A stretch of 64,000 nucleotides of DNA from Aureliella helgolandensis (GTDB lineage: Bacteria; Planctomycetota; Planctomycetia; Pirellulales; Pirellulaceae): positions 1,984,001 through 2,048,000 of the forward strand of contig NZ_CP036298.1 of assembly GCF_007752135.1 (NCBI RefSeq), read 5' to 3'. The position numbers were made by a program, and so were the translations under genes. Each line of letters opens with the position of its first letter. Position 1 is the first letter of the stretch. This document shows positions 12,885-36,788 of the stretch, one piece after another. The notes beneath the pieces were generated by a model. That model saw only the letters and a program-made list of their open reading frames with translations. It had not been told where the DNA came from and did no database searches.

Positions 12885-14681
12885 TCATTCAAGCTGCGTG
12901 ACAGTTACATAGTAGGCACCCAGTTCACCTTCTTGGATCTCGAATACCGGTGCAAGGCGATACGATCCCTGCTTGAGCTCTGTGTCGAAGCTGACCTCTT
13001 CCGCGTTCGCTTCAATGGGCTTCCGTTGGAGATCCTTGCCGTCGATGCGAAGCACCGCGTGGGTTGCTTGGATGGCGTTTCCGGGGGTGGTGCGGAAGGC
13101 CTTGGTAGCTCCAGGAACATTGCTGCCTGCCGGCAGGGAGGCGTTGATTGCGGCTCCCGACTCCACGGGCCATCGGCGGAGTGAAATCTTATACTTGCCA
13201 TCTCGGATCGCCTTCACGGCCCAGTGTCCCTGGTGCGTTAGTTTCGGAGCGTCGGGCTGCTTGCGGTCGGCTGCGCGGATGGAGCCTTGATGCCAGGGAG
13301 GATAGACCTCTTGGATCCAATCGTGTGCGGTGAGGCTGACGACGGGGTGCTGGGGGTGTCCGAGATAGATTTCAGTGGTCTGTGAAAAAGTGGGTTGGAG
13401 TTCGGCCCACCATGTTTCGTAAAACTGTCGCATCTCAGCCACGACTTCAGGATGTGCTTTGGCAATGTTCTTTTTTTGCCCGGGGTCGACGGCGATTTCA
13501 TAGAGCTCTTTGCCATTGATCAGTCGATACTTTTGCGACATAACCGCCGAGCTGCGCCATTTGATCGGATCGCGTACGCGTTGAGAATCACTGATGACAA
13601 ACCGCTCAGGAAATTTCACACTTTTTGCTGGATCTAACAAGTCGGCGATGGAGACACCATCAAACTTCACTTCCTGAGGCTTCCTAACGCCGGTCATTTC
13701 CAGCAACGTCGGAACGATGTCGACAGCGTGCGTCAGCACCGCGACGTCGTGTTGCTGGGTAATGCCACCGGCGGGCCAATGGAGAAAGAATGGGACGCGG
13801 TGCCCTCCGTCGTAAGGGCTGCCCTTGCCGGCTCGCATGCCTGCATTGTAGATTTTGGCGCCACTGGCGGTGCCGTTATCGGTGGTGAAAATGAAGATCG
13901 TATCCTGCTCGATTCCTAGCTCTTCGATTAACTGACGGGTTTTCCCGACGTTGTCGTCGATATTGGTAACCATCCCGTAGAAGGCAGCGATATTGTCGGA
14001 CTGCCCTTTATACATATCCATGTATTCCGGCGGACAGTGCAGTGGCCCGTGAGGGGCATTGGTGGAAATGTAAGCCAAGAACGGCTTCTGCTGCTGCGCG
14101 CACTTGCGGATGAAACTGTTCGCCTGCTCGAAAAAGACGTCGGTGCAAAAGCCCTTCGCAGAAACGATTTGACCATTGTGATAATAGGAACCGTCAAAGT
14201 AGGCGTTGTCCCACAGGTCCGGTGTTTGCCCGATACCGCCACCACCATGCCGGTAGACCTCGGTGAAGCCACGATCCTCGGGACGATACGGATAGTTGTC
14301 ACCAAGATGCCACTTGCCAAACATGCCGGTTGCATAGCCAGCGTCTGCAAACATTTGTCCGACGGTGACTTCATTCTCTCGCAGCATCGATCGCCCCATG
14401 ATGGTGTGCCAGACCCCAGTGCGGTTGGTCCAGTGTCCCGTTAGGAGCGAACAACGTGTGGGGGAACAAGTTGGGGCAACATGGTAATCGCTCAGAGCAG
14501 AGCTTTCCGTTGCCAATTGATCGATGTTTGGCGTTTTGATGATGGGATTTCCCGTACATCCAAGGTCGCCATAACCTTGGTCGTCTGAGATGACGAACAC
14601 TACGTTCGTGGGAGCCGCTGAGACGGGGCCGGAAATGAACAGTCCGACAAGGAGCAAGTAAATGCGAAAGTTAGGTGTCAT
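12885..14681 (-). CDS. Secreted arylsulfatase (type I formylglycine sulfatase)
   Basis: The 598-residue protein has a signal peptide (IYLLLVGLFISGPVSA) and a mature start APTNVVFVISDDQGYGDLG. The sulfatase signature CSPTRCSLLTG at about 76-86 contains the Cys converted to formylglycine (C-x-P-x-R, here with Thr). GKWHLGD, a late IFTTDNG and other metal or sulfate ligands are in place. After the catalytic domain (to about residue 430) a beta-rich C-terminal extension of about 150 residues follows, as in many planctomycete arylsulfatase A-like enzymes. It stands alone on the minus strand. The likely substrate is a sulfated marine polysaccharide or small ester, but sequence does not tell which. 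No formylglycine-generating enzyme is visible in the window. Confidence 0.92.
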   Translation of the reverse strand: MTPNFRIYLLLVGLFISGPVSAAPTNVVFVISDDQGYGDLGCTGNPIIKTPNIDQLATESSALSDYHVAPTCSPTRCSLLTGHWTNRTGVWHTIMGRSMLRENEVTVGQMFADAGYATGMFGKWHLGDNYPYRPEDRGFTEVYRHGGGGIGQTPDLWDNAYFDGSYYHNGQIVSAKGFCTDVFFEQANSFIRKCAQQQKPFLAYISTNAPHGPLHCPPEYMDMYKGQSDNIAAFYGMVTNIDDNVGKTRQLIEELGIEQDTIFIFTTDNGTASGAKIYNAGMRAGKGSPYDGGHRVPFFLHWPAGGITQQHDVAVLTHAVDIVPTLLEMTGVRKPQEVKFDGVSIADLLDPAKSVKFPERFVISDSQRVRDPIKWRSSAVMSQKYRLINGKELYEIAVDPGQKKNIAKAHPEVVAEMRQFYETWWAELQPTFSQTTEIYLGHPQHPVVSLTAHDWIQEVYPPWHQGSIRAADRKQPDAPKLTHQGHWAVKAIRDGKYKISLRRWPVESGAAINASLPAGSNVPGATKAFRTTPGNAIQATHAVLRIDGKDLQRKPIEANAEEVSFDTELKQGSYRLAPVFEIQEGELGAYYVTVTQLE

Positions 14682-16986: not shown

Positions 16987-18165
16987 CTAGCGAGTGCTCA
17001 CAATGCTGCTGTAGGCTTGGTCAAGACCATTTCGCAATGTCCAGGCGCGGCTCGTTGAGCACGAGGTGTGCTGAGCTTGAGTCATGGCATGCTGCAATTT
17101 GGAAACTACATGAACCGGCAAGCTACGGTCGCCGAGAAGGTTGGTCGTAGTGGTCATGTAGAGCTGTGCACATGCTTCGTGGTGCCCTGCATTGTAGGTC
17201 GAAGAACCCTGTGCAATGGCGTCCACGATTACTTGACTGGCCTTCGTTGCCGACACCTTCTTGGGCTCCGGGGGAAGGATTACAGCATCGATGACGTGAA
17301 TAACACCGTTCGAGGCGTCGATGTCGGTGGCGATCAGGTTGGCATCGTTGACGCGAGCCTTGCCGTCCGTGACGGTAATGGCAACCGTTGCTCCCTGGAG
17401 GGTCTTCGCTACCTTGGCTTCCAGTGCATCTTCAGAGTAAACCCGGCCGGCGACTACATGATACTTGAGAATGCCTGCCAGCTTGTCCTTGTTTTCTGGC
17501 TTCAACAGACTCTCTACGGTCCCGGCTGGCAATTTAGCAAACGCGTCATCAGTCGGTGCAAAGACGGTTAACTCGGTTTCACCAGACAGTGCTTCTACCA
17601 GCCCGGCGGCTTCGGCAGCGGCGAGCAGCGTCTTGAATGTGCCAGCCTTATCAGCCGTCGTCACCAAATTGTCGCTACTCGGAAGAATCACGCTATCGAT
17701 CACGTGAATGATTCCATTGGAACACTCGATTTCCGTCGTGACAACTTTCGCCTTATCGACCGATACAGTGCCATCGGTTACGGCAATATCGATCCGCTGG
17801 CCGTTGAGAGTTTTCGCACCCTTGAGGCCGACGACCTGCTGGGCCGCAACCTTGCCAGCGACAACATGGTAGGTCAACACACCAGCCAGCTGGCTCTTGT
17901 TCTCTGGCTTGAGTAGAGTTTCAACCGTGCCGGCAGGCAGCTTAGCGAACGCGGCATCGGTCGGTGCAAAGACCGTGAAGGGGCCATCTCCCTTGAGGGC
18001 GTCGACTAAGTCAGCAGCTTGCAGAGCCGCAGCGAGCGTCTTAAAGGATCCTGCCGCGACGGCAGTGTCGACAATGTCTTTCTCAGCCGCTCCTGAGATG
18101 GATGAGCTAAGCAGGACTGCGCTGGTGCTCAATGCAGTCAACATGTTCTTCATTAGGCGTTTCAT
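16987..18165 (-). CDS. Secreted protein with two fasciclin (FAS1) domains and a helical C-terminal domain
   Basis: The product is about 392 residues. A signal peptide ([21 protein letters not shown]) precedes two FAS1 domains (about 30-165 and 168-300). Each carries the family motifs: [19 protein letters not shown] then [10 protein letters not shown] in the first, [19 protein letters not shown] then [10 protein letters not shown] in the second, and each ends near [30 protein letters not shown]1 domains mediate adhesion or matrix binding. The last 80 or so residues, after PEPKKVS, are a Cys-containing, probably helical region I do not recognise. ATG 18165 is preferred over 18195 because AGGAAG lies 7 bases upstream. 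Confidence 0.9.
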
Positions 18166-19090
18166 TTTCAGCTTCCTATTGGTAAGAAATCTCACTCAAG
18201 TATGGTTCCGAATCGATCGAGACGTTGGTGGCCACTGCAATCTCTACGCGTACTCTAGAAAGGGGAATCCGGTCGACAAGTGTGAATCGTAAAAGTTCGT
18301 TCGTTCTTTTTCTAAGAAGGTGACGGGCTAGTGAATTGCGGTCGCTCCACAGTGGAGAAATTCAACGCTCGCGATCTTAGAACAATCGGTTGAATGGGTT
18401 ACTAAGGACGCGCCGAACAAAGCCAGCTGCTCACGGGAGCGAAAAAGAAATCCGGAAGCGGCAAGACTCAACGATTCGATCAGTGAGGCGTACGGTGTTC
18501 CACGGGTGAAGCGTGGTGTGTAAAGAATCGATCCACAGCAGCGAATGTAAAACGCTGATAAGATTGGCGAGCTGCCGGGGCCAGTGGGCAACCAGAAATG
18601 CGCCGTTGGGACGAAAGAGAAGTCGCACAGACCAGTGGGGGAATGGGGGGGCAATCAAAGAAACGCTGCCGGACCGCGGTTGAATTTTAGGCCTGGAAAA
18701 AGCCGCTCAACTTCGACTGCCTTCCCGAGAGATTTATCCGGCGATCGGCTCAACTTCCGGGGGGATGACGGAGGTCGTGAGGTGCAACTGGGGCCTGTTG
18801 CGGGATGGGACGCATGGCATTCGCCCAGGCTATCGGCAGGCTACAGAGGCTGCCGCGTCGGTGCGCTGGAAGTGAATCCAGGAGCCTCATATGGTGAAGG
18901 ACAAGAGTCGTTACTCGGCCCGCGTTTCGCTGGACTTGTTGGTTTGCTCGGTCTGGAAAGCTGCGGCTGGTCTCCTATGCCGCTGAAATGAAACATCGGT
19001 GAATCTTGGGGCACTCGGATGATCTGTCAATCCTGTTACTCGAGATGTGGAGCGTGTTGGGAAAGCCTGGGGAGGTCACCGTTGAGTCGA
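18166..19090. other. Long intergenic region without a convincing gene
   Basis: About 925 bases between two minus-strand genes. Short frames exist on both strands (for example 18328-18654 minus and 18584-18991 plus), but they overlap each other, have no domain and no clear ribosome site. The segment next to 18165 must carry the FAS1-gene promoter. A degraded gene cannot be excluded. Confidence 0.45.
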
Positions 19091-20032
19091 CTAGTTGGCA
19101 GAGATTCTGACTTGGTCTAAGTCAAGTTCATTGGCCATGGCTTGCAGTTTGCTAACGGCCCGACCTTCCAGTTGTCGGACGCGTTCTTTGGAGACACCCA
19201 ATTTGTTGGCCAGCTCTTGGAGGCTGCGAACCCGGTGGTGAGAGCCCAATGCGAAGCGACAACGAATAATGAACCGCTCCCTGCGATCAAGTCTTTGCAG
19301 CATTTGCGAGGTGAAGTCGCGTAGAGCCTTCCACAGCTGATCTGATCTGGAGGATGATTGTGTTTCGTCGGTCTGGCCAAAGGCCCATTCATCGGCTCCG
19401 CGAGTCAGGCGGGCTTCTTCTTCCCGAGCGGTCGCCACGAAGCGGTAGGCAGTTCGCGAGATCGAGCGATAGGCGTAGGTACTGAAGCGAAAGCCACGGT
19501 CGAAATCGAATTTCTCAACGGCGTTCATTAGTGTGATCGTGCCTTCACTCAGGATCTCGTCAAAGGATTGCGACGGAGTCACAAATTTCTTGACGATCGA
19601 TATCACCAGACGCATGTTGGCTTTGATAATGTGGTCGCGAACTTGACGCGATTGGCTCAACAGATCCTCGACTGCCTCTAATGCGTGGTGATCCGCGGAG
19701 TGGGGCGGCAGGCGGTCGCGGAGTTCGGAAGCCAGGAACTTCAAATAGTTCATCTGCCGAAACAGGATTTTCTCGTCTTCAGCGGTAAGAAGTTCTGCCT
19801 CACACAGACGTCCCAAGTAGGCCGGCAAGTCTGTCGGTATTCCGTCACCAGCATTGTTTTGGATGCTTAGGCTGGATAGCAGGTTAAGCGTGTGATCTGT
19901 TGAGAAAACAAAGCTTGCGTTGGGCACGTAGTCGATCAGGGGATGATTCTGAGAGGTGGCGGAGGAGGGCGCCAAATCGCCGGAGCTAAGCCCATTCGCT
20001 GGGGGATTCTCTGCAACTACTGAGTTCGACAT
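19091..20032 (-). CDS. Sigma-70 family RNA polymerase sigma factor
   Basis: The 313-residue protein has a poorly conserved N terminus of about 65 residues. A region 1.2-like helix (about 70-100), region 2 (VRDHIIKANMRLVISIVKKF to FSTYAYRSISRTAYR, about 131-197) and region 4 with helix-turn-helix (LQELANKLGVSKERVRQLEGRA, about 271-292) follow. Region 2.4 reads YAYRSISRTAYR where housekeeping factors have a Trp-Trp-containing stretch, so promoter choice is probably specialised. Region 3 is short. The start is ATG 20032, with GAGG 6 bases upstream, rather than 20050. It is transcribed divergently from a CarH/LitR-like regulator, and two copies of a shared direct-repeat motif lie just upstream, so it is likely to be controlled by that regulator. 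Confidence 0.9.
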   Translation of the reverse strand: MSNSVVAENPPANGLSSGDLAPSSATSQNHPLIDYVPNASFVFSTDHTLNLLSSLSIQNNAGDGIPTDLPAYLGRLCEAELLTAEDEKILFRQMNYLKFLASELRDRLPPHSADHHALEAVEDLLSQSRQVRDHIIKANMRLVISIVKKFVTPSQSFDEILSEGTITLMNAVEKFDFDRGFRFSTYAYRSISRTAYRFVATAREEEARLTRGADEWAFGQTDETQSSSRSDQLWKALRDFTSQMLQRLDRRERFIIRCRFALGSHHRVRSLQELANKLGVSKERVRQLEGRAVSKLQAMANELDLDQVRISAN

Positions 20033-20057
20033 TGAATTGTCCTCGAGCAAGATAAAT

Positions 20058-20072
20058 CGTTCAAAACGTTCA
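20058..20072 (+). promoter_or_regulatory. Candidate operator, copy 1
   Basis: CGTTCA-AAA-CGTTCA is a perfect direct repeat of six bases with a 9-base period. It lies 26 bases upstream of the sigma-factor start codon. CarH-type tetramers are known to contact direct repeats rather than a simple palindrome, which fits the neighbouring regulator. The assignment is inference. Confidence 0.55.
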
Positions 20073-20118: not shown

Positions 20119-20133
20119 CGTTCAAAACGTGCA
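20119..20133 (+). promoter_or_regulatory. Candidate operator, copy 2
   Basis: CGTTCA-AAA-CGTGCA matches copy 1 at 14 of 15 positions. It lies 61 bases further upstream of the sigma-factor gene. Confidence 0.55.
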
Positions 20134-20248: not shown

Positions 20249-20263
20249 CATGCAAAACGTTCA
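20249..20263 (+). promoter_or_regulatory. Candidate operator, copy 3
   Basis: CATGCA-AAA-CGTTCA matches copy 1 at 13 of 15 positions. It ends immediately before an in-frame ATG at 20264 and 12 bases before the preferred start of the regulator, consistent with autoregulation. A weaker relative (CATGCA-GAA-CGTGTG) is at 21259-21273 beyond the gene. Confidence 0.5.
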
Positions 20264-20275
20264 ATGGGAGATTTT

Positions 20276-21154
20276 ATGAAAACGCTTGTCACCCCCAAAC
20301 AGGTGGGGCGGTCCCTCGGCGTGAGCGAGTCGTCGGTCAAGCGATGGTGTGATAACGGCGAGATTGCAGCGCAGTACACCGCGGGCGGGCATCGTCGAAT
20401 TGCCATCTCCACCGTGCTGGATTTGGTGCGCGCGGGCAAATACACGCTGGTGGCACCAGACGCATTGGGCTTGCCTGCAACGAGTGGGCGAGGGGCGCAC
20501 GCCACCGCGCATGCTCGCGAAACACTGACCGAGGCACTCCTGGAAGGAAACGCGTCGCGCTGTCGCCAGTTGATTTTCGATTTGTACTTGGCAGAGCAGC
20601 ACTTGAGTGTGATTTGTGATGAAGTCTTGGCACCGGCGTTTGCTGATATCGGCGAAAGGTGGTCGTGTGGCCAAGCCGAGGTCTATCAGGAAAGACGCGG
20701 GTGCGAAATCGTTTTGCACATCATGCATGAGTTGGAAACGCTGTTCCCACCACCGTTGGAAGATAGCTACCTGGCCCTCGGAGGAGCCACTGAAGGAGAT
20801 CAGTATTCCCTCGGTACGAAGATGGCCGAACTCGTCCTACGCGACACCAAGTGGAACGCCATTTCGCTCGGCGACAATCTGCCGTTTAGCACCCTAGAGT
20901 CGGCCATTGCGGACAATCGCCCTAGACTCTTCTGGATTAGTTGTTCTCACATCGCTAATCCCAATCAATTCTTGGCGAGTTACTCTGCACTGTACGAAAG
21001 ATTCCACTCGGAGATTGCGTTTGTGGTAGGGGGACGCGCGCTGACCGATGAACTGCGGCGGAAGATGAAGTTTTCTGCGTACTGCGACAACATGCAGCAT
21101 TTGGAAGGCTTCGCGCGTACCCTCTTGGTAGCACTTGAAAAGAAGTCGCTCTAG
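20276..21154 (+). CDS. CarH/LitR-like MerR-family regulator with degenerate B12-binding domain
   Basis: The 292-residue protein has the CarH layout. An N-terminal MerR/excisionase helix-turn-helix (TPKQVGRSLGVSESSVKRWCDNGEI, GGHRRI) is followed by a four-helix B12-binding cap (about 78-155) and a Rossmann-like B12-binding domain (about 165-290, with VVGGRALTDE). CarH relatives bind adenosylcobalamin and release DNA in light. The key residues differ here: the Wx9EH cap motif is W129-x9-E139-R140, and the cobalt-ligand motif DxHxxG is D175-Q-Y177-S-L-G180. Lower-ligand coordination by His is therefore impossible, and the protein may be cobalamin-independent or use another ligand. GGGAG upstream favours ATG 20276 over 20264. 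It is divergent from a sigma factor and beside lipid-modification genes. Confidence 0.85.
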   Translation: MKTLVTPKQVGRSLGVSESSVKRWCDNGEIAAQYTAGGHRRIAISTVLDLVRAGKYTLVAPDALGLPATSGRGAHATAHARETLTEALLEGNASRCRQLIFDLYLAEQHLSVICDEVLAPAFADIGERWSCGQAEVYQERRGCEIVLHIMHELETLFPPPLEDSYLALGGATEGDQYSLGTKMAELVLRDTKWNAISLGDNLPFSTLESAIADNRPRLFWISCSHIANPNQFLASYSALYERFHSEIAFVVGGRALTDELRRKMKFSAYCDNMQHLEGFARTLLVALEKKSL

Positions 21155-21413: not shown

Positions 21414-22751
21414 TCACGCCCGCGTCGAGACGTCCAATTTGCAGCCTGGCTTAGACAGCAGCAGTTGAGAAACTCCAATTTTGCGTTCCCGAAAGCCTGC
21501 CTCGCAGTAGCTCAGGTAGTACCGCCAGGTGCGAATGAAGCGTTCGTCAAAACCCAGCGATTGGACTGCTTCGAGATTCTTCTCAAACCGCTCTCGCCAC
21601 ATTTGGAGTGTGTTTGCATAATGACTTCCGATGTCCTCCATGTGCACGAATCGAAAGTCCGTTTTCCGGCCCACACTATTCGCAATGGCTCCCATACTCG
21701 GCAGAAATCCACCCTTGAAAATATAATGTTGAATGAAATCCACCGATCGTCGGTAACGCTCGTAACGGTGGTCCGGAATGGTAATCGCCTGTAGGCACAT
21801 TGCTCCATCTGGGGCGAGCAATTGAGAACATTTCGCAAAGTATTCTGGGAGGTACCGCTCTCCAACTGCCTCGATCATTTCGATGGAGACTAGTTTATTG
21901 AAGGAGCCGCAAAGATCTCGATAGTCTTGATTCAACAGGGTGACTTGGTCGGTAAGACCTTGACTTCGGAATCGATCAGCCGCGTAGGCATGTTGTTGTT
22001 TGGAGATAGTAGTCGTTGTAACTCGACAACCGTACTGCTTGGCAGCGTGTTCCGCGAAGCCGCCCCACCCTGTACCAATCTCCAAGACATGATCCTTGGC
22101 GGAGAGCTGTAGTTTGCGGCAGATGCGATCGTATTTCTCGATCGAAGCCTCTTCCAGGGTTGATTCTGCCCGGTCAAAAAATCCACTAGAGTAGGTCATG
22201 GTAGGGTCGAGCATCAACGCAAAGAACGCATTGCTCAAGTCGTAGTGGGACGAAATATTGCGGCGACTACCACGCCGGGTATTTCGATGCAGCCAATTCG
22301 TAGCAGTGCGAAGGGGGCGCATCAGCATTGCTCCGCCTCGTTCGACACTCGCCAACGCTTCCATATTGCCCGCCAGCACTTGCATCGCTTCGGTGAGGTT
22401 CGGAGAGTCCCAGTCACCACGAATATAGGACTCTGCTGCACCCAGGCTGCCACCCAGGGCTACCTGGCGATAGAAGCTGCTACGATGGACTTGGATCGAA
22501 GCGGACGGGGCAGCTTGGAGGCGGACTCCGAAGCGATTCACGCCGATGGGGTCCTGGATCGTCAGTTGCCCACGTTGAAACTGCTGCAGCTGCCTATGCA
22601 CCAAGTGGCGAGCGAATTGATTGCCTCGACTCTCGAACCAACGGTCGCGCGCTACTGGACTCGGGATTCTTTGGCCGGACGCAAAGGACTCGAGCACTGA
22701 GTGGTTTGAGTTGAACTGCTTCGCTTCTTCGGGTGCGTATGGGAAGGACAT
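21414..22751 (-). CDS. Cyclopropane-fatty-acyl-phospholipid synthase family methyltransferase
   Basis: The product is about 445 residues. The N-terminal domain of the family is present (FYRQVALGGSLGAAESYIRGDWDSPNLTEAMQVL). The SAM-binding motif is VLEIGTGWGGFAEHAA. The catalytic-domain motifs MTYSSGFF, SIEMIEAVGERYLPEYF and FIQHYIFKGGFLPSM match bacterial CFA synthases, where the equivalent is YIFPGG. The expected reaction is methylene or methyl transfer from SAM to an unsaturated acyl chain of a membrane phospholipid. It is the last gene of a five-gene minus-strand operon and its start overlaps the DUF1365 gene by about 100 bases. ATG 22751 is preferred over a TTG at 22763. Confidence 0.9.
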   Translation of the reverse strand: MSFPYAPEEAKQFNSNHSVLESFASGQRIPSPVARDRWFESRGNQFARHLVHRQLQQFQRGQLTIQDPIGVNRFGVRLQAAPSASIQVHRSSFYRQVALGGSLGAAESYIRGDWDSPNLTEAMQVLAGNMEALASVERGGAMLMRPLRTATNWLHRNTRRGSRRNISSHYDLSNAFFALMLDPTMTYSSGFFDRAESTLEEASIEKYDRICRKLQLSAKDHVLEIGTGWGGFAEHAAKQYGCRVTTTTISKQQHAYAADRFRSQGLTDQVTLLNQDYRDLCGSFNKLVSIEMIEAVGERYLPEYFAKCSQLLAPDGAMCLQAITIPDHRYERYRRSVDFIQHYIFKGGFLPSMGAIANSVGRKTDFRFVHMEDIGSHYANTLQMWRERFEKNLEAVQSLGFDERFIRTWRYYLSYCEAGFRERKIGVSQLLLSKPGCKLDVSTRA

Positions 22752-23470
22752 TTTTTCCACCAAAGTTTGAGAGCCTGGAAGTAGATCGCCGCGCAGATTT
22801 TGGCGGTCATCATGGGATAACGCAGGGACATTCGCCTGAGATTCTGGCGATCGAGTGAGCGCCGTTGGAGCGCTAAATCTGCTTCGAATTCGACCGAGGA
22901 GTCCCGAGTGTTGGCCAAGCGAACCTGGAGAGTCGCCTCCGGTTGCGATAATCGCCAGCGGTATTGCATCTCCATGTCCATGAAGGGCGAAACATGGAAA
23001 TCTTTAGGGTGGCTGAAGGTGAGCTCATGGGATTCCTGCAATTGGTTTCCTTTCCAAAGCACGTAGCAATGGCGTTCTTTCCAGGGAGTGTTATTGACTT
23101 CCGCCACGACGGCCTCGACGCGGTTGGCCTCAGCATCAAAACAGTAGTACAAATTCAGCGGACTCATGTAGTAGCCGAAATTACGTAGTTGCGTGAGTAG
23201 ACGAATCGGGCCTGTCGTTTCACAGCCTGTCTGCTCGAGGACTAGGGAACGCACCTCGGTTGCAAGGGGGATGTCCGGCTTGAACAAATGGTCCCCTCGC
23301 AGGAACGATCGGACCGAGGTGGCACGATTGCCCAGCAGCGCCCTGCTACCGAGCATGGCGGGAATTTCATCCAAATCCAGGTAGACCATATAGAGTCGGT
23401 ACTGAAATTGATGATTTAGAGGCACATGGCGGCGGTGGCTGACCGTCCCCTCGTAGATGCAGCTATGCAT
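22652..23470 (-). CDS. DUF1365 family protein
   Basis: The 272-residue protein opens with the family's typical HSCIYEGTVSHRRHVPLNHQF and contains LYMVYLDLDEIP, NFGYYMSPLNLYYCFD and HVSPFMDMEMQYRW, all hallmark stretches of DUF1365 (COG3496). Its biochemical role is not established. In many proteobacteria it always sits beside the FAD amine-oxidase-like and CFA-synthase genes in singlet-oxygen or light-induced clusters, as here. Its start overlaps the end of the amine-oxidase-like gene by 55 bases and its end overlaps the CFA gene, so translation is probably coupled. The C-terminal 30 or so residues past HTHPKK are Ser/Thr-rich and look like an overlap-driven extension. Confidence 0.9.
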   Translation of the reverse strand: MHSCIYEGTVSHRRHVPLNHQFQYRLYMVYLDLDEIPAMLGSRALLGNRATSVRSFLRGDHLFKPDIPLATEVRSLVLEQTGCETTGPIRLLTQLRNFGYYMSPLNLYYCFDAEANRVEAVVAEVNNTPWKERHCYVLWKGNQLQESHELTFSHPKDFHVSPFMDMEMQYRWRLSQPEATLQVRLANTRDSSVEFEADLALQRRSLDRQNLRRMSLRYPMMTAKICAAIYFQALKLWWKKCPSHTHPKKRSSSTQTTQCSSPLRPAKESRVQ

Positions 23471-24723
23471 GATTCAAGATTGAGTCCAAAGTTTTTAGTA
23501 ACCTCCAGCGCACTGTTGACACCATCTTCGTGAAAACCGTAGCCCCAATAGGCGCCGCAGAAATGAGTTTGATTCCTACCGTTGATCTCGTGCAACCTAC
23601 GCTGCGCGGCAATTGCGGCTACGCAATAGGCCGGGTGTTGATAATGGAAACTTCGAATCACGCTCCCGGCGGCTATGTCAACCGATGGGTTCAGCGTCAA
23701 CAAAATTGGAGTCGGCGAATGGTGGTTCTGTAGCCGGCTGAGATCGTAGGTCACCGAAGCGTTTTGGTTGTCATCCTCCGAAATGCGATAATTCCAACTC
23801 GCCCAAGCACGGCGTGTGCTTGGCAACACTCGCGTATCCGTGTGCAGCACGGCGGTGTTGGCGTGGTAGGGGATCGCACCGAGCACCTCGCGTTCGGCCG
23901 GAGTGGGAGCCGCGAGCATTCTGAGGGCTTGGTCCGAATGAGTCGCGAATACCACTTGGTCGAACACCTCCAGTCTTCCACCTACCGATTTTACCGCGAC
24001 TTCCTCCCCTGAGCGAATTACCGTGTCCACAGGCGAATTCAACTTAACCCGATCCGCGATGGGCTTGAGCAGGGCATCGACATATTCCCGAGCTCCGCCA
24101 CGAATTGTTCGCCATTGCGGACGATCACGAAGTTGCATGAGCCCGTGATTGGCAAAAAATCCAACCAGGAAACTTGCCGGGAAATCCAGGATCGACTGGG
24201 GAGTGCTCGACCAGATGGCTGCGGCCATCGGAACCAAGTACTGCCTAAGAAAGGTTTCTCCAACACCGCACGCAGTGAGAAATTCGCCCACGCTCTGCTC
24301 GTCCTGAGGTAGTGCATTCTGTGCCGCCGACATGCCGGCTCGATTAAAACGCACGATGTCTCGCAGCATCCGCAGAAAGCTAGGACTGAGGAGGTTTGCT
24401 CTCTGGGCGAAGATTCCGTTAAGGGAACTCCCTTGATACTCCACACCGCTGCTATCGCATCGCACGCTAAAGCTCATGTCGCTCGGTTGAGAAGCAACGT
24501 CTAAAATTTCCAACAAACGGCAGAAATTGGGGTACGTTTTCCGGTTGAACACCATGAAACCAGTGTCGACTGGATAGGGTACGCCTTCCAGTTCAACGTC
24601 CACGGTGTTGGCATGACCGCCTGCGTAGTGACTGGCTTCGAATACCGTTATAGAATGCTGCGTGGAAAGAATTCTGGCAACGAGACACCCTGAAATTCCA
24701 CTACCAATGACTGCGATACGCAT
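23416..24723 (-). CDS. FAD-dependent amine-oxidase-like oxidoreductase (COG2907)
   Basis: The 435-residue protein begins with the FAD dinucleotide-binding motif MRIAVIGSGISGCLVARIL and the acidic end of the second strand (VFEAS). GGHANTVDVELEGVPYPVDTGFMVFN follows, characteristic of the COG2907 amine-oxidase-like group. These enzymes accompany CFA-like methyltransferases in bacterial lipid-modification clusters, and a flavin desaturase of methylated fatty acids is one reported type of activity in furan-fatty-acid synthesis; the exact reaction here is inference. ATG 24723 has AGGGAG upstream and follows the desaturase stop by a single base (TAAG-ATG), so tight coupling is expected. An upstream in-frame start at 24753 would overlap the desaturase gene. 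Confidence 0.88.
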   Translation of the reverse strand: MRIAVIGSGISGCLVARILSTQHSITVFEASHYAGGHANTVDVELEGVPYPVDTGFMVFNRKTYPNFCRLLEILDVASQPSDMSFSVRCDSSGVEYQGSSLNGIFAQRANLLSPSFLRMLRDIVRFNRAGMSAAQNALPQDEQSVGEFLTACGVGETFLRQYLVPMAAAIWSSTPQSILDFPASFLVGFFANHGLMQLRDRPQWRTIRGGAREYVDALLKPIADRVKLNSPVDTVIRSGEEVAVKSVGGRLEVFDQVVFATHSDQALRMLAAPTPAEREVLGAIPYHANTAVLHTDTRVLPSTRRAWASWNYRISEDDNQNASVTYDLSRLQNHHSPTPILLTLNPSVDIAAGSVIRSFHYQHPAYCVAAIAAQRRLHEINGRNQTHFCGAYWGYGFHEDGVNSALEVTKNFGLNLESCIAASTRGRSATAAMCL

Positions 24724-24724
24724 C

Positions 24725-25603
24725 TTAGGCTCCCTGGCTTGAGGAATCGACAAGATTGCGCTTTAGGATGTGGTTGGGGACCGGCTTGAGGTCCCAGACC
24801 AGGCCCAGCCATGACATCACGACGAGTAAATAGTAGGACACGTCGATCTCCCACCAGAGGAAGCCTTGCCGAGCAGATGTTGGGAAATGGTGATGATTGT
24901 TGTGCCAGCCTTCCCCGAAGGTGAACAGAGCCAGCCACAGGTTGTTCCGACTGTCATCCCCTGTCGCATAGCGGCGCGTTCCGTAGGTGTGGGCAAGCGA
25001 ATTGATGCCGAACGTCACATGGTAAAGAGCGACGGTTGAGACTACGAAACCCCAGACCAACATTTGAACGCCACTCGTTCCCGATTGTGGTGAAACCATG
25101 CGGACGAACTCTCCCAATCCATACATGCTGAATGCAAGGAGGACCGGCGCGAAGAAATCGAACCGCTCAAGAAACCGCAGCTCTGGAAACTTCAGCCAGT
25201 CCTTGACTACGCGGTGGTTGGTCTCATATCCCTCGTCGGTCATGAACCACAACATGTGACTCCAGATGAAGCCCTGCTGCGAAGGCGAATGAATATCGTT
25301 GGGGTTGTCTGAGGCGCGGTGATGATGGCGGTGGTGCGCTGCCCACCAGATGGGGCCACGCTGAGCTGCGCTGTTCCCCAACAGGGCTCCCATGAACTGT
25401 ACTGCCCGAGACGTCTTAAAGGCCCGATGGGAGAAATAGCGGTGGTAAAAGGCGGTCAAGCCAAAAACTCGCGCAAAGTAGACGAACGCAGCCACTGCAA
25501 TTGCAATCCAACTCCAGCCCACCACAAAAACCATGAGGCAGGCAGCGTGAAGCAAGAAGAAGGGGGCAACCCGGAACCATTGAACTTGACCGGTGGACGT
25601 CAT
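24725..25603 (-). CDS. Membrane acyl-CoA/acyl-lipid desaturase (delta-9 type)
   Basis: The 292-residue integral membrane enzyme has the three di-iron histidine boxes: YHRYFSHRAF near 52-61, AAHHRHHHRASD near 88-99, and GWHNNHHHFPTSARQG near 228-243. Hydrophobic hairpins lie between them, the usual fatty acid desaturase layout. The expected reaction is O2-dependent introduction of a double bond in an acyl chain, providing the alkene that CFA-type methyltransferases use. It sits between the DUF1295 gene (118-base gap) and the FAD oxidoreductase gene (1-base gap) on the minus strand, so it belongs to the lipid operon. Confidence 0.92.
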   Translation of the reverse strand: MTSTGQVQWFRVAPFFLLHAACLMVFVVGWSWIAIAVAAFVYFARVFGLTAFYHRYFSHRAFKTSRAVQFMGALLGNSAAQRGPIWWAAHHRHHHRASDNPNDIHSPSQQGFIWSHMLWFMTDEGYETNHRVVKDWLKFPELRFLERFDFFAPVLLAFSMYGLGEFVRMVSPQSGTSGVQMLVWGFVVSTVALYHVTFGINSLAHTYGTRRYATGDDSRNNLWLALFTFGEGWHNNHHHFPTSARQGFLWWEIDVSYYLLVVMSWLGLVWDLKPVPNHILKRNLVDSSSQGA

Positions 25604-25721: not shown

Positions 25722-26564
25722 TTAGAAGTTCTGTTTCGGCGGGAGCGGTAGGAATGCGCTGGTACTCTTCAGGTACTGCTCGTAGCCGTCGATGCGACTG
25801 CGGAGCGAGTTTTCCAATAGCCGAACACCGGAAACTCGGATGAGCAGGAAGGACATCAGCAGAGGGCCAATTGCAGTCCACCACCAGTTGACTGAATCTG
25901 CAGCAACGAGGTAAAAGCCCCACCAAATCAAGAAATCTCCGAAATAGTTGGGGTGCCGCGTATACCGCCACAGTCCTTGATTCATGACTTTGCCACGATT
26001 GGAGTTCTGTGCTTTGAAGCGGGCCATTTGGTAGTCGCCGATGGATTCGAAAGCCAGGCCGAAGAACCAAACCGCGATCCCCAGCCAGGAAACAGCGTTC
26101 AGCTCGCCAGCTTGGCGGATTCCCACTTGCAATGGCAGGGAGATGATTGCCGTCAAAAGTCCTTGCAAGCCGAATACGGTAAATAAACTGACTATGGGGA
26201 ACCGCGGTCCATGCTTTTCCCGCATGGCCGCGTAGCGATAGTCCTCGGGTTTTCCCACATTGCGCCAAGCCAAATAGCCAGACAATCGCATGCCCCAAAT
26301 CGACACCAAGAGTGTCAGCAGGATGGGTTTGGTCATCCATTCTCCACTCAGGACCAGCGATAGCCAGGCGACGATTACGAAGCCCAGGCCCCAGAAAATG
26401 TCGATGATACTTGCATTTTTTAAGCCTAGGCTGATCAACCAGAGCAACAGCAAAGCTGCAGCCAGCGCGGCTAGATTGCAGATAAAGAGTAGTCCAAGGC
26501 TCATAAGACTCATTCCGAATGCGAATATGGTGAACGTCTGAAGGGGTTGACTCGACTCTATCAT
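25722..26564 (-). CDS. DUF1295 / steroid-reductase-like membrane protein
   Basis: From the chosen ATG the product is about 280 residues with about six membrane spans. It ends in the DUF1295 signature NQGLWRYTRHPNYFGDFLIWWGFYLVAA. The family is related to steroid 5-alpha-reductases and isoprenylcysteine methyltransferases, so reduction of a lipid double bond or lipid methylation is possible. DUF1295 genes recur in CFA/DUF1365 clusters. The frame extends to 26888, but the first 108 residues are hydrophilic, contain no membrane spans and would overlap the divergent methyltransferase gene, so ATG 26564 (or 26513) is chosen. It is the first gene of the minus-strand lipid operon. Confidence 0.85.
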   Translation of the reverse strand: MIESSQPLQTFTIFAFGMSLMSLGLLFICNLAALAAALLLLWLISLGLKNASIIDIFWGLGFVIVAWLSLVLSGEWMTKPILLTLLVSIWGMRLSGYLAWRNVGKPEDYRYAAMREKHGPRFPIVSLFTVFGLQGLLTAIISLPLQVGIRQAGELNAVSWLGIAVWFFGLAFESIGDYQMARFKAQNSNRGKVMNQGLWRYTRHPNYFGDFLIWWGFYLVAADSVNWWWTAIGPLLMSFLLIRVSGVRLLENSLRSRIDGYEQYLKSTSAFLPLPPKQNF

Positions 26565-26786
26565 CGTAGCTGGCAGGGAACCCTTGGGTTTCCAACTCAA
26601 TTGAAGCAACAAGCCTCGCGGCTCCGGGATGTCGTGTGGGCTGGCTTGGGCGTAGGCCCCCACCCGGCCACCAAACGCCAAGTCACGGCCCTTGGGCCAG
26701 GGCGGAGTGCTTTTCCGCCAATTGAACAGTTGCTTTCCTTGAAACAGTCCGTTTCGTCGGAGCTCTTTACCAGGAATCAGAAAATT
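26565..26786. promoter_or_regulatory. Divergent promoter region for the lipid operon and second methyltransferase gene
   Basis: A 222-base spacer separates the DUF1295 and methyltransferase starts. It does not contain a clear copy of the CRTKCA-N3-CGTKCA motif seen upstream of the regulator. Promoters recognised by the neighbouring sigma factor may lie here, but its consensus is unknown. Confidence 0.4.
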
Positions 26787-27857
26787 ATGCTCAACGCGAT
26801 CGACCTTGCAGAATCTGGTGTGGCACCCGACTGGCTGATACGGATCGGAATTCGACGCTTGTTGTCCAAGCGGATTCAAGGCTCGCATTCAGTGGACGTA
26901 GCAGCGTTTGCGCGAGAGATTGGCAGTGGGCCCTTGGCACTAGAGTCTCAGGCGGCCAATGAACAGCACTACGAAGTACCAGCCCAATTTTTCGAGTCCT
27001 GCCTCGGGCGGCGTATGAAGTACAGTGCCTGTCTATTTCCACATGCCTCAACGTCGCTAGTTGAAGCAGAGGAGGAAATGCTGCGGCTGACCTGTGAGCG
27101 GGCTGAGATCTCCGATGGGATGCGCGTGCTTGAGCTGGGCTGCGGCTGGGGCTCCTTGACCCTGTGGATTGCTGAACATTTTCCCAACTGTACGATCACG
27201 GCACTCACTAATTCAAACAGCCAACGAGAGTTCATCGAACAAACCGCTCGACAGAGGAAATTCGTGAATGTTCGCGTCATTACGGCTAATATGACGGAGT
27301 TCTCTGCCGACGAAAAGTTTGACAGGATCGTATCCGTTGAAATGTTCGAACACATGCGTAACTACAAGCTGTTGTTCTCACGCCTTGCGGGTTGGCTCGC
27401 CCCTCAGGGCAAAGCTTTCGTTCATGTTTTCTGCCACCGCAGTACCCCCTATCTGTTTGAAACCGAGGGCGCGGACAATTGGATGGGGCGTAACTTTTTC
27501 ACTGGAGGCATGATGCCATCGGTAGATTTGTTTAGCCACTTTGACGATTGTTTGGGCATCGAAAAACAGTGGACGGTGAATGGCCTGCACTATTGGCGAA
27601 CTTGTGAGGAATGGCTTCGAAATCTCGACTCCAACCGGTCGCGTGCCCTTGAAAGTTTGAGTAAAAACGTAGGGATAGGTAACGCAGAGAAGGCCTTGCA
27701 GCGATGGAGGATGTTTTTCATGGCATGCGCAGAGCTATTCCGCTACCGCGACGGCATGGAATGGTTTGTCGCCCATTACCTGTTTACCCCGCAAGAGTCC
27801 GGTAGTCCGCAGGCTCACCGCGGTGAGCCTGCATTGGTCCAAGAAGGCGGAGTGTGA
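26787..27857 (+). CDS. CFA-like SAM-dependent methyltransferase (second copy, diverged subfamily)
   Basis: The product is about 356 residues. It lacks the N-terminal domain of CFA synthase and instead opens with a short helical region (LNAIDLAESGVAPDWLIRIGIRRLL). The catalytic domain has NEQHYEVPAQFFESCLGRRMKYSACLF, the SAM motif VLELGCGWGSLTLW, SVEMFEHMRNYKLLF and NFFTGGMMPSVDLF. The last motif is the FFTGG variant found in coclaurine-N-methyltransferase-like relatives rather than the YIFPGG of true CFA synthases. A fatty-acid C-methyltransferase is therefore likely. ATG 26787 has AGGA about 11 bases upstream; the longer frame from 26547 would overlap DUF1295. It is divergent from the lipid operon. 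Confidence 0.88.
   Translation: MLNAIDLAESGVAPDWLIRIGIRRLLSKRIQGSHSVDVAAFAREIGSGPLALESQAANEQHYEVPAQFFESCLGRRMKYSACLFPHASTSLVEAEEEMLRLTCERAEISDGMRVLELGCGWGSLTLWIAEHFPNCTITALTNSNSQREFIEQTARQRKFVNVRVITANMTEFSADEKFDRIVSVEMFEHMRNYKLLFSRLAGWLAPQGKAFVHVFCHRSTPYLFETEGADNWMGRNFFTGGMMPSVDLFSHFDDCLGIEKQWTVNGLHYWRTCEEWLRNLDSNRSRALESLSKNVGIGNAEKALQRWRMFFMACAELFRYRDGMEWFVAHYLFTPQESGSPQAHRGEPALVQEGGV
27810..27831. repeat. Perfect 22-bp palindrome at the end of the second methyltransferase gene
   Basis: Two 11-base arms (CAGGCTCACCG and its exact complement) meet with no spacer, 24 bases before the stop codon. It could fold as a hairpin in the transcript or be a protein-binding or recombination site. No T run follows, so it is not a classic terminator. 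Confidence 0.7.
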
Positions 27858-28033: not shown

Positions 28034-28891
28034 ATGCCTACCGAGCAACACGATCCACGAAATCGGCTTCACTGTATGGAAGTCCAAGGCGGACACGGTA
28101 CGGACTCCCAATTTTTTAGGCGCCCCGGTCTCGATGTGTGGATTTGGAATCAATCTCGGCAGGACGCCAAGGTGGAAGGCGGTGACATCCACTACGTCTC
28201 CTCTTGCGCCTCGGGACGAATTACCAGAATGCTGATGGCTGATGTTGGAGGTGTCAACAACCATTTCGCCGACGTTGCCTGTCGCTTGCGAGACGTGATG
28301 GTGCGGAACATCAACGCGATCGCTCAATCCTCGGCGGTTCGACAGATGACAGCCCAGCTGGACTCAACTTCTCAACAGGGAGGCTTCGCCTCGGTACTTC
28401 TTAGTACGTTCTTCGCACCGACTCGGTCGTGGACCGTTTGCAATGCAGGCCATCCACCACCGTTGCTTTACCAATCGGTTAAGGGGGAGTGGGCAGCGCT
28501 CAAACCGCTGTCTAGTGAACTCCCACCAGCCGCAGATTACGCTGGCAATGTCGATGTTTCCGAATACCAGAATTTTAAGCTCAGGCTAGACGCTGGCGAT
28601 ATGTTCTTCTGCTACAGCAACTCCCTAACGGAGTGTCGTCAAAGCAACGGGAGAATGATGGGAGTTGAAGGGATTCGCAGCCTCGTGCAGAGATTGTCCG
28701 AGTCGTCCAACCCGGAACTCGCGCTCAACGAATTGATCCTTACGATTCGAGACGCTCATCAAGACAATTTGTGCACGCAGGATGCAACAGTCATGCTCAG
28801 CAGAGTGACTCCTACACGCGTTTCACTGCGAGACAATTTTCTGGCGCCATTCCGCTTTATTCGAGGTGCCAACGACCGAACGTCCTTGTAG
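28034..28891 (+). CDS. SpoIIE/RsbU-type PP2C serine phosphatase
   Basis: The 285-residue protein is almost entirely a PP2C-SpoIIE domain. The metal-binding Asp residues appear in GGDIHYVSS and MLMADVGGV. SWTVCNAGHPPPLLY, DAGDMFFCYSNSLTECR and the closing TQDATVML are all family signatures. The usual D-x-S/M-G-K/H-G stretch is altered to DVGGVN. No sensor domain is fused, so regulation must come from partners. RsbU-type phosphatases act in partner switching on anti-sigma antagonists, and the nearby sigma factor makes such a link attractive, but no anti-sigma or STAS gene is visible here. An AGGAAG about 10 bases upstream supports ATG 28034. Confidence 0.82.
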   Translation: MPTEQHDPRNRLHCMEVQGGHGTDSQFFRRPGLDVWIWNQSRQDAKVEGGDIHYVSSCASGRITRMLMADVGGVNNHFADVACRLRDVMVRNINAIAQSSAVRQMTAQLDSTSQQGGFASVLLSTFFAPTRSWTVCNAGHPPPLLYQSVKGEWAALKPLSSELPPAADYAGNVDVSEYQNFKLRLDAGDMFFCYSNSLTECRQSNGRMMGVEGIRSLVQRLSESSNPELALNELILTIRDAHQDNLCTQDATVMLSRVTPTRVSLRDNFLAPFRFIRGANDRTSL

Positions 28892-34608: not shown

Positions 34609-36168
34609 CTATCGTTCGAGCGCATCGGGATCGATCGGTTCCCCTTCCCAAACCGCAGTCTTGCCATCCCACGTCAGGACGCGGTGCGCGCTACCTGGTG
34701 CCAAGGGGCGATCAATTTGCGGCAACCATTTTGCTAAATCGGCCTTCACCTCCCGAAATTCGGTATGACTGGCCAAGTTGTCCCACTCATTGGGATCCTC
34801 TTGCATGTCATACAGCTCCTCGCTTCCATCGGCATAACGAATGAATCGCCAGCGATCGGTGCGGATGGCATGGTTGCCCTGATTGTGTGAAGTGATTGCT
34901 GGCCACTGACGCGGGGCATTGGCCCTCTCTAGTTGCGGACGCAGCGTGTGCCCCTCCAGGCCCGTTCGCGCGGGCAAGTCGCAGAGGTCCACCAACGTGG
35001 GGTAGATATCTAATAACTCCGCAGGTTGCGAGCTTCGTGCACCCGCCGGCAGGTTGGGGCCGGCGATGATCATGGGAACGCGCGTCGAGCGGTCCCACAG
35101 CGTGTTCTTTCCCGAAATCTCTTTCTCGCCCAGGTGGTAACCATGGTCCGACCAAAGCACGACAACGGTATTTTGATCTAGACCTTGAGCCTTCAACTCA
35201 GCCAAGACGCGGCCGACCATGCCGTCCACGAAACTGGTGGATGCAAGGTAGGCCCTCACCAAAGATCGGTCTTCCCCAGCTTGCTCCAACCAGCTCAGGC
35301 GTGGTTCGGGAAGTTGCCAATGTAGATACCAAGAAAATAGAGGGGTGTCATCGCGATCACCCCGCAGAATCGGTGGCATCAGTAGCGATTCTTCTGGGTA
35401 GAGATCAAACCATTTCTGAGGAGCGAAACAGGGGACATGAGGGCGGCGAAAGCCGCAGAAAAGCATGAAGGGCTGGCTCGATTCCTCTTGGGCCAGAGCA
35501 TCCAACTGTTCGCAGGCCCAGGTGGCTACTTTGTAGTCATCTTGCTGCGAATCATGCTCTGGAAAAACTCCCCAGTCCATCAGCGGATGCCCTCCCTGCA
35601 TATTGATGATCTTCTTTGCAGGCTTGGGATTTCCACCACTACCGTGGTAACCCCACACGTCAAACTCGACCCCCGTCTCCCGCTGGTCTCGCGGTGGGTA
35701 AGCATCGTGGTAGGTCTTCCCACCGGTGATCGTGCGGTAGCCATGTTGTTGAAAGTACTGCGGGAGCGTCACCCAATCCTTAAATTCAGGAAGTGTGCGG
35801 AACCAGGGGGACAACCCGTACACGCCGGTCGTCGTTGGCCTCAACCCTGTCATGACACTGGTGCGAGAGGGATTGCACAGTGGAGATTGGCAATGCGCGT
35901 TGGTGAACACCGTCCCTCTGGCAGCCAACGCGTCCATATTGGGCGTTTGAACTTGGGGATGTCCGCCTAAGCAACCAACCCAATCGTTCAGGTCATCGAT
36001 TGAAATGACTAGTACGTTGGGTTTAGCAGCCACCGCTTCAGGGGATGCGGACGACTGGGGTTCAACTGCTGCGAGAGTGGAACAACCAAAAGCGAGCATT
36101 CCAGCAATTACGAAACAGTGGAACGGCCTGCCGATCGCCGAGTTGTTCGATGGGGAATCGGTAAACAC
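34609..36168 (-). CDS. Secreted iduronate-2-sulfatase-like sulfatase
   Basis: The product is about 519 residues. A signal-like segment (FHCFVIAGMLAFGCSTLAA) precedes KPNVLVISIDDLNDWVGCLGG, the metal-binding start of the fold. The formylglycine signature is CNPSRTSVMTG (C-x-P-S-R). GGKTYH, WSDHGYHLGEK and the C-terminal YDMQEDPNEWDNLA match iduronate-2-sulfatase-like enzymes common in planctomycetes. Likely role: desulfation of uronic-acid-containing or other sulfated polysaccharides outside the cytoplasm. The frame extends to a GTG at 36285; a GTG at 36168 gives a shorter and more typical signal peptide, so the exact start is uncertain. Confidence 0.9.
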   Translation of the reverse strand: MFTDSPSNNSAIGRPFHCFVIAGMLAFGCSTLAAVEPQSSASPEAVAAKPNVLVISIDDLNDWVGCLGGHPQVQTPNMDALAARGTVFTNAHCQSPLCNPSRTSVMTGLRPTTTGVYGLSPWFRTLPEFKDWVTLPQYFQQHGYRTITGGKTYHDAYPPRDQRETGVEFDVWGYHGSGGNPKPAKKIINMQGGHPLMDWGVFPEHDSQQDDYKVATWACEQLDALAQEESSQPFMLFCGFRRPHVPCFAPQKWFDLYPEESLLMPPILRGDRDDTPLFSWYLHWQLPEPRLSWLEQAGEDRSLVRAYLASTSFVDGMVGRVLAELKAQGLDQNTVVVLWSDHGYHLGEKEISGKNTLWDRSTRVPMIIAGPNLPAGARSSQPAELLDIYPTLVDLCDLPARTGLEGHTLRPQLERANAPRQWPAITSHNQGNHAIRTDRWRFIRYADGSEELYDMQEDPNEWDNLASHTEFREVKADLAKWLPQIDRPLAPGSAHRVLTWDGKTAVWEGEPIDPDALER

Positions 36169-36788
36169 AGTGAAAACTCTCTGCAAAGTGAACAAGGTTG
36201 GATGAAAATCGTGAGATCCTAGCACGGACGCTGAAATGCACGTGAGGCTGCAGGAATCCACTGCGCCAACCCCTCCTGCAGACACGCTTCTTCTGGCTTT
36301 AGAGCCTCCTGGCGTTTGAGGCTGGAGACTGTGGCGGCATTGGGCGGTTGGAAAAACGGCAGTCGATTTGCGCCCCTATCATAACCTATCTGCCAGGGGC
36401 GTCGGTGCAATCTGAAGAATCGTTGCGACCGAGCTAAACTTCTTGGTCGCGGTTGTCGATCCAACCCTAAGAAGCGCCTTACGGATTATCATCCGCTGAG
36501 TCGAGGTTCCTGGAGTCGCATTGCCCCATGCGCAGCCGGAATTCGGCCAGCGGACCAACTCCGGAAAATTGGACATCGGTTGAATCCGGCAACACATTGG
36601 CATCGCTCGTCAATGTGGAAGTCTGTTGGGTTCTAGGTTTGGGTGCTACCGTTTCGTCCTCTTCGATGGCGGTTCCAGTGGATAACGGTTCAGTAGGCTT
36701 GAACCGGATGCGCGTCGTCACTACCGGAAGGGCGTTGCGCGATGAAGAATCGCGTCGCTGATCTACGTCCTTATCCTATCGCGAACGT
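36169..36788. other. Divergent spacer with a possible small gene
   Basis: About 620 bases between the sulfatase and the TPR gene. The first 117 bases may instead be the N-terminal extension of the sulfatase. A possible 80-codon gene on the minus strand (36479-36721) is listed separately. Nothing else is recognised. Confidence 0.45.
36479..36721 (-). CDS. Possible small hypothetical protein
   Basis: An 80-codon frame starts with GTG and has reasonable codon choices throughout. The predicted product is hydrophilic, Thr/Asp/Glu-rich and without membrane segments or known motifs. No good ribosome site is seen, and a competing frame on the other strand covers the same stretch. It may be a small planctomycete-specific protein or chance. 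Confidence 0.3.
   Translation of the reverse strand: MTTRIRFKPTEPLSTGTAIEEDETVAPKPRTQQTSTLTSDANVLPDSTDVQFSGVGPLAEFRLRMGQCDSRNLDSADDNP

Follow-up and report, generated by a model that had tools for sequence, protein, structure and literature searches.

CtMerR of Chloracidobacterium thermophilum (8jbs/8jbt) and the CarH/LitR proteins are the described systems closest to the regulator reported here. CtMerR joins a helix-turn-helix (HTH) domain to a B12 domain composed of a four-helix part and a Rossmann part, and it binds AdoCbl via His204; its light signature is GxxW, EH, GxxH, and GxxxP, of which the Trp, Glu, and Pro contact the adenosyl group, and two Gly contact the corrin (PMC11796333). 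Class I CarH/LitR, represented by T. thermophilus CarH (5c8d/e/f), has a MerR-type HTH and both His residues; the published CarH motif reads D/ExHx2G/P-x41-SxT/V-x22-27-GG (PMC9304148). Other relatives depart from this scheme: (i) class II LitR (PplR and PmlR2) is a B12-free regulator encoded beside light-inducible photolyase, FAD oxidoreductase, and furan fatty acid synthase genes and has the four-helix part only (PMC9758184); (ii) CarA of Myxococcus xanthus, a CarH relative with a B12-free action in photo-oxidative control, retains the His motif and EH and is described as lacking the Trp (PMC9304148); and (iii) AppA SCHIC and R. rubrum HP1 are B12-fold regulators with the standard cobalt His lost or moved, which act as anti-repressors via PpsR-type partners (PMC9144470, PMC10734443), HP1 being a reduced form that its paper holds unlikely to bind cobalamin or haem (PMC10734443). 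On the DNA-binding side, BldC, described as having no effector-binding domain, binds head-to-tail with each protomer on one 9-bp direct repeat, and its consensus is AATTxxxx(C) (PMC5859096).

Domain organization of the regulator

The window, a stretch of 64,000 nucleotides from Aureliella helgolandensis, encodes a B12-fold regulator (P0001). An earlier note on this DNA had read its two sensor motifs as W129-x9-E139-R140 and D175-Q-Y177-S-L-G180, and this reading proved correct in coordinates, start, stop, and numbering. The gene and its parts are as follows.

20276..21154, + strand: B12-fold regulator, 292 aa, with Tyr177 and Arg140 replacing both His (ORF, alignment)
20288..20434, + strand: N-terminal HTH_17/BldC-like DNA-binding domain, residues 5-53 (Pfam HTH_17, 2.5e-7)
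20516..20734, + strand: four-helix B12-binding_2 domain, residues 81-153 (PF02607, 3.1e-9, 37.3 bits, cut-off 23)
20660..20695, + strand: Wx9EH-equivalent motif, W129-x9-E139-R140 (sequence, alignment)
20777..21127, + strand: B12-binding Rossmann domain, approximately residues 168-284 (PF02310 below cut-off; model compared with 8jbs and 5c8d/e/f)
20798..20815, + strand: DxHxxG/P-equivalent motif, D175-Q-Y177-S-L-G180 (sequence, conservation)

The PF02310 match reached 25.9 bits, below the Pfam cut-off of 32.1 (9.5e-6 over residues 168-257); the Rossmann domain contains S222-x-S224 and G252-G253, and Cys270 lies close to its end. In Pfam, the HTH matches HTH_17 and not MerR; among the regulator and 7 close-relative loci, HTH_17 matches 8/8 and PF00376 (MerR) 6/8. 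With the NCBIfam CarH model NF052513 (cut-off 400), the regulator scores 39.3 bits and T. thermophilus CarH 493.8 bits; with the NCBIfam BldC model NF033787 (cut-off 77), the regulator scores 31.9 bits. It thus combines a CarH-type sensor with a BldC-like DNA-binding domain and falls short of the threshold in both curated models. The “full CarH layout” attributed to it earlier holds only for the sensor half, which matches CtMerR and CarH; the DNA-binding half is BldC-like.

The best Foldseek match of an AlphaFold model made with 8 input sequences, those of the regulator and the 7 close-relative loci (best mean pLDDT 87.6, worst of five 62.1; range 62-88) was the CtMerR B12 domain 8jbs (TM 0.84-0.86 by target length, 2.1 Å), followed by T. 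thermophilus CarH (5c8d/e/f) and photocobilins. A profile of the 8 sequences searched against the PDB found 8jbs at 1.3e-39 and also matched the HTH structures 6ama and 6amk, which we take to be BldC structures. CtMerR is thus nearest to the regulator in the PDB by both sequence and fold. It has the same domain order and a similar HTH (“VSESSVKRW”), but it has EH and GDLH where the regulator has ER and GDQY (PMC11796333); of the CtMerR light signature, the regulator keeps GxxW and GxxxP and has ER and GxxY at the other two places. At positions 131 and 143, CtMerR carries Arg and Ser, respectively, and the stretch compared stops short of 270.

T. thermophilus CarH (P0002, locus L188), used as the reference, came at E = 1 from a plasmid search at E up to 5; the plasmid search at 1e-8 gave one match. 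The aligned pairs of the regulator and CarH are W129/W131, V136/V138, E139/E141, R140/H142, D175/E175, Y177/H177, and G180/G180, so the two proteins have the cap Trp and Glu in common in addition to the sensor fold. The spacing D175-x-Y177-x2-G180-x41-S222-x-S224-x27-GG252-253 equals that of the published motif exactly, with the SxT/V and GG features of class I CarH represented by S222-x-S224 at x41 and G252-G253 at x27. There are two departures: (i) Tyr for His and (ii) Ser224 for T/V, Ser224 also being the commonest residue in His177 rows (24/39). Gly180, considered as a further oddity, was dropped because the consensus permits G or P at this sixth position (PMC9304148); among 99 order-level proteins (defined below) the residue at 180 is Gly in 17, Pro in 58, and Ala in 23.

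The other systems differ from the regulator in distinct ways. Unlike class II LitR, the regulator retains the Rossmann domain and its motifs (PMC9758184); it retains the Trp but lacks both His, the reverse of what is described for CarA (PMC9304148); and SCHIC and HP1 stand apart by their anti-repressor action (PMC9144470, PMC10734443). MliR of Bizionia was considered as a relative and set aside, since a term search of its paper gave no CarH or cobalamin and gave LitR in the reference list only.

Conservation and phylogeny of Tyr177 and Arg140

Two samples were used. In the order-level (Pirellulales) sample, 84 of the 147 genomes near the source genome have a match at 1e-10; five genes were left out (in G012, G021:C774, G110:C17, and G014:C135, and the second of G025), and the matches together with the 7 close-relative loci, all of them planctomycetes and found in a contig scan, gave 99 distinct proteins. 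The same scan showed that Adhaeretor mobilis, a cultivable planctomycete, carries this regulator at 65% identity. Tyr177 is present in 88 of these (otherwise Ser in 3, Ala in 3, His in 3, Phe in 1, and Glu in 1) and Arg140 in 85 (otherwise His in 13 and Phe in 1), and E139 (98/99), W129 (96/99), and D175 (94/99) are kept, which bears out the earlier remark that the changes are not random decay. In the phylum sample, 121/393 genomes match, and the part used (60 regions plus the loci returned) gave 164 distinct proteins, 140 with Tyr177. They comprise 110 of the Arg140/Tyr177 type, 28 of the His140/Tyr177 type, and 26 others, two of which have Tyr177. The counts in both samples indicate that Tyr177 occurs across the phylum, with Arg140 confined to a subgroup. 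To the earlier question of whether planctomycete orthologues conserve both residues, the answer is that Tyr177 marks a phylum-spread clade and Arg140 a large subgroup of it; orthologues keeping His177, taken there as the sign of a one-off Tyr, occur as exceptions only (3/99: L115, L116, and L117). The combination of Arg140 with His177 was found in 0/198 aligned rows. Arg140, Tyr177, Cys131, Cys143, and Cys270 occur all together in 76/164 proteins, the Cys trio accompanying Arg140.

Both key His are absent from the regulator, as they might be in a one-off or decaying CarH of a single strain. This explanation was rejected, given the Tyr177 counts of 88/99 and 140/164 and the conservation of the repeat and the gene order described below.

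As a control, T. thermophilus CarH was searched in the 393 phylum genomes, of which 118 match at 1e-8, some of the matches being Tyr proteins. Among the best 30 loci, L221 is the Tyr gene of L170, and the other 29 all have His177, with EH in 28/29 and a MerR-type HTH (W-E-x-R) in the aligned stretch in 25/29; as the best matches to CarH, these loci are bound to favour His. His-type CarH is therefore also present in Planctomycetota.

A tree was calculated by a quick method from 130 rows with the trait columns removed; L186, L189, and L191 were dropped, and 45 of the 110 Arg140/Tyr177 rows were taken (the regulator and 44 chosen at random). Support is below 80 at 62 of the 127 inner branches. 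A Tyr-rich clade of 95 rows (SH-aLRT 94) has CtMerR as its sister (joint SH-aLRT 95) and includes 3 His177 rows (L115, L156, and L158). The tree implies 4 changes between Tyr and His at 177 (16 when all other residues are scored as a third state) and 5 between Arg and His at 140.

Some loci carry further variants. Three proteins with Arg140 and Ser or Ala at 177 (L065:4992-5873, L068:4902-5876, and L077:4872-5858) make up a separate branch near the root of the clade, at its base. L148:4950-6951 carries a tandem regulator pair, the second copy of which has DR and SxD at the motifs and is perhaps a duplicated partner with an altered sensor. The relatives at L181:4797-5792 and L183:4827-5861 have no cap Trp, have LH/ExD at the motifs, and share a long branch.

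Among the matches listed in the open-licence literature, none concerns a planctomycete clade marked by these Tyr, Arg, and Cys residues or a CarH relative with Tyr in place of this His, and none concerns such light regulation in Planctomycetota. The finding is real and clade-wide. It is a variant within the CarH/CtMerR kind and not a categorically new system; the earlier suggestion of an undescribed regulator class, made for the case that the feature was clade-wide, was too broad, since the B12-independent class II LitR, CarA, and HP1 are known.

The sensor pocket and its candidate ligands

The pocket positions are close to invariant in the 110 Arg140/Tyr177 proteins: G126 (110), W129 (109), E139 (110), D175 (109), G199 (110), P203 (110), S222 (106), S224 (105), G252 (110), and G253 (110), with V136 (73/110) and G174 (90/110) less fixed. 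The mean over eleven motif positions including V136 is 0.96, compared with 0.55 for random sets from positions 79-284, and 0/20,000 sets scored as high; the positions were chosen as known motif positions and are largely Gly and Pro, the conservation of which may reflect the fold only. The near-invariant motif is the main reason for considering a ligand to be still bound, and a ligand most likely still occupies the old B12 pocket of the regulator. That ligand would probably be a corrinoid, held base-off without a His ligand. When side chains are placed in the pocket by alignment with CtMerR and CarH, Tyr177 (with Asp175) would lie beneath the metal, Arg140 and Cys143 would lie on the adenosyl side, and the Trp129, Glu139, and Pro203 contacts would be retained.

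The PF01923 adenosyltransferase is present in 55 of 60 genomes, the source genome included, and together with the conserved pocket this makes B12 binding without His possible. The source genome has one further B12-binding_2 protein, in a 1297-aa frame, which by length and motif is probably methionine synthase; searches there found no PF02572, no methylmalonyl-CoA mutase, and no T. thermophilus CarH match at 1e-8. G090, which has an Arg140/Tyr177 regulator (L022) and no PF01923 or PF02572 match, was considered as a case against AdoCbl and rejected: it carries methylmalonyl-CoA mutase and is therefore uninformative on this point. No corrinoid protein is known to us in which Tyr is the cobalt ligand. 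Mmp10 was considered as a precedent and dropped because its paper places Leu322 there. The non-His cases described are Cys in HgcA (where it is thought to be so), Arg in QueG (blocking), and Leu in Mmp10 (PMC13331322).

If the pocket instead held another tetrapyrrole, such as heme with Tyr as its ligand or a bilin, the CarH-type frame would serve to sense heme or a bilin. Tyr is a usual ligand of Fe(III)-heme, and SOUL heme-binding genes lie near 5/28 His140/Tyr177 and 3/110 Arg140/Tyr177 loci. AppA SCHIC is a heme-binding B12 fold, but its cap Trp is changed to Leu and its His has moved by two residues (PMC9144470), whereas Trp129, Glu139, and Pro203 are near invariant here and their CtMerR counterparts touch the adenosyl group (PMC11796333). 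We regard a heme or bilin sensor as improbable.

The Cys residues bear on a different explanation, in which the B12 fold is ligand-free and either is read by a partner protein, as in CarS on CarA or an illuminated short LOV protein on class II LitR, or works through its own Cys131, Cys143, and Cys270 as a thiol redox or singlet-oxygen switch. These residues are Cys in 85, 98, and 100 of the 110 Arg140/Tyr177 proteins, respectively, and other residues are commonest elsewhere: His (12), Thr (22), and Gly (13; Cys in 6) in the 28 His140/Tyr177 proteins, and Asp (13/39), Ser (25/39), and Ala (10/38) in the His177 group. DCC1-like thiol-disulfide and AhpC/TSA-type neighbour clusters occur at 6 loci each. 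Precedents are class II LitR, which acts without B12 via a LOV partner (PMC9758184), and HP1, which is described as having no cobalamin motif and responds to redox state (PMC10734443). The near-invariant corrinoid motifs argue against an empty fold and set these proteins apart from class II LitR, which retains the four-helix part only (PMC9758184), and no LOV-type photoreceptor or CarS-like partner was found among the 15 tool-named clusters of the 33 neighbour clusters with at least 6 loci. A ligand-free sensor seems to us possible but rather unlikely, and a pocket that probably holds a corrinoid is the reading followed below.

Operator-like repeats and the divergent sigma gene

The upstream regions of the regulator genes have a common direct repeat, CGTTCA-NNN-CGTTCA. 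In the window, the intergenic region that separates the regulator from a divergent sigma-70 gene has three such sites within 206 bp. The sites and the neighbouring genes are as follows.

20058..20072, + strand: operator-like site 1, CGTTCAAAACGTTCA, 9-bp direct repeat, exact; 25 bp before the sigma ATG (20032)
20119..20133, + strand: operator-like site 2, CGTTCAAAACGTGCA, 9-bp direct repeat, 1 mismatch
20249..20263, + strand: operator-like site 3, CATGCAAAACGTTCA, 9-bp direct repeat, 2 mismatches; 12 bp before the regulator ATG
16987..18195, − strand: fasciclin-domain protein (Pfam, cluster 8)
19091..20032, − strand: divergent sigma-70 family factor, regions 2 and 4, with an in-frame TTG start also at 20050 (Pfam/NCBIfam)
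21414..22763, − strand: cyclopropane-fatty-acid-synthase (CFA)-like methyltransferase (Pfam, cluster 2)
22652..23470, − strand: DUF1365 protein (Pfam, cluster 3)
23416..24753, − strand: FAD-dependent amine-oxidase-type protein (Pfam, cluster 4)
24725..25603, − strand: fatty acid desaturase (Pfam)
25722..26603, − strand: DUF1295 protein, start uncertain (Pfam, cluster 10)
26547..27857, + strand: second CFA-synthase-like methyltransferase, start uncertain (Pfam, cluster 2)

At no more than 1 mismatch, the repeat is present in 61/110 promoter regions of the Arg140/Tyr177 group, compared with 3/110 gene bodies and 0/110 shuffles, and is missing from the other 49/110 promoter regions; for the His140/Tyr177 group the figures are 12/28 regions, 0/28 gene bodies, and 0/28 shuffles. 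Half-site pairs have the 9-bp spacing in 85 cases and every other spacing in at most 9, and 9 bp is the spacing used by BldC. For a tighter pattern, 89 sites fall in the 82.8 kb near the regulator start, compared with 8 in the remaining 1.40 Mb; 87 of the 89 share the orientation of the regulator, and 68/138 loci have one. Site 1 (20058-20072) is the sole exact match to the tighter pattern in the source genome, and the window has no site for this pattern outside the intergenic region. The regulator resembles BldC in HTH type and in the repeat length of its predicted sites, which differ from the BldC consensus (PMC5859096).

Counts within the window are close to chance: AACGTNCA occurs 9 times (7.3 expected) and KCAAAACGTKCA 3 times (1.4 expected, with 20/100 shuffles reaching 3). 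The loose pattern, at up to 2 mismatches, has 15 places in the window, those with 1 mismatch lying also at 5299 and 52394. The case for operators therefore rests on the cross-genome comparison and on the three sites within 206 bp. A genome-wide regulon defined by the repeat was rejected: at up to 2 mismatches, the source genome has 54 sites compared with 70 for a control pattern, and the three other 1-mismatch sites are inside long ORFs. Because there is no genome-wide excess, we claim direct targets only within the intergenic region, where the divergent sigma-70 gene is the likely direct target of the regulator.

ORFs lying within 7 kb of the 164 regulators, or up to the end of a locus where that came sooner, were clustered. 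The sigma-70 cluster is present at 69/164 loci, and 64 of its 70 members are divergent upstream. At the 110 Arg140/Tyr177 loci, the neighbours are sigma (60), CFA synthase (33), epimerase/DUF1731 (33), which is presumably of the TIGR01777 type, DUF1365 (31), amine oxidase (30), PQQ-like (26), DUF1295 (20), fasciclin (16), two photolyase types (8 and 6), and DUF2867 epimerase (6); the gene of T. thermophilus CarH likewise adjoins a photolyase gene. A gene of photo-oxidative type (a set without sigma and PQQ-like) occurs at 75/110 of these loci, a raw count with no random-locus baseline. Sigma (5/28) and the photo-oxidative set (10/28) are rarer at the His140/Tyr177 loci, also as raw counts. A parallel for the pairing with a sigma gene is LitR-LitS of Streptomyces. 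Similar gene types accompany the light-inducible class II LitR in Pseudomonas (PMC9758184).

Other genes were also observed around these loci. A SpoIIE-type phosphatase gene lies at 28034-28891 of the window, near the CFA cluster, and such a gene is near the regulator in 7 loci including the window. Sulfatase-like genes lie at 34609-36285 and 46248-47945 (Pfam) and at 12885-14681 (by inspection of the sequence). On plasmid pTH2c of Rhizobium sp. TH2, an ORF missing from the incomplete gene table of the plasmid (L189:3938-4777) encodes a similar HTH with an EH/ERH (His-type) B12 domain and adjoins a fasciclin gene, as in the window.

In the model that we prefer, the BldC-like HTH would bind the 9-bp direct repeats as head-to-tail subunits, with its DNA binding governed by the CarH/CtMerR-type B12-fold domain. 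The regulator would sit on the three intergenic sites, repressing both its own gene and the divergent sigma-70 gene, until it is released by light or a photo-oxidative signal; the freed sigma factor would then switch on protective genes such as those for CFA synthase, DUF1365, amine oxidase, and desaturase. Control of the CFA cluster would go via sigma, given that the window sites of the tighter motif are confined to the intergenic region. Such an autoregulated sigma-factor switch, with a pocket that probably holds a corrinoid without His, is our leading explanation, put forward at a little less than an even chance. The broader proposal is more tentative: throughout the phylum, these proteins may be planctomycete sensors of light or photo-oxidative stress that hold a corrinoid or another tetrapyrrole, with Tyr on the lower side, Arg and Cys on the adenosyl side, and a photochemistry of the metal centre that is not known from any CarH, acting through BldC-type repeats on a dedicated sigma factor.

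CarH, in which the cobalt is held by His, serves as the model for B12 photoreceptors and as a tool in optogenetics. In the relative described here, which is spread over a phylum, a near-fixed Tyr replaces that His while the remaining pocket motif is conserved. Either cobalamin can act as a sensor without the His, or the pocket is filled by a new ligand or is empty, and the conserved repeat together with the sigma gene offers a ready read-out for distinguishing these alternatives.
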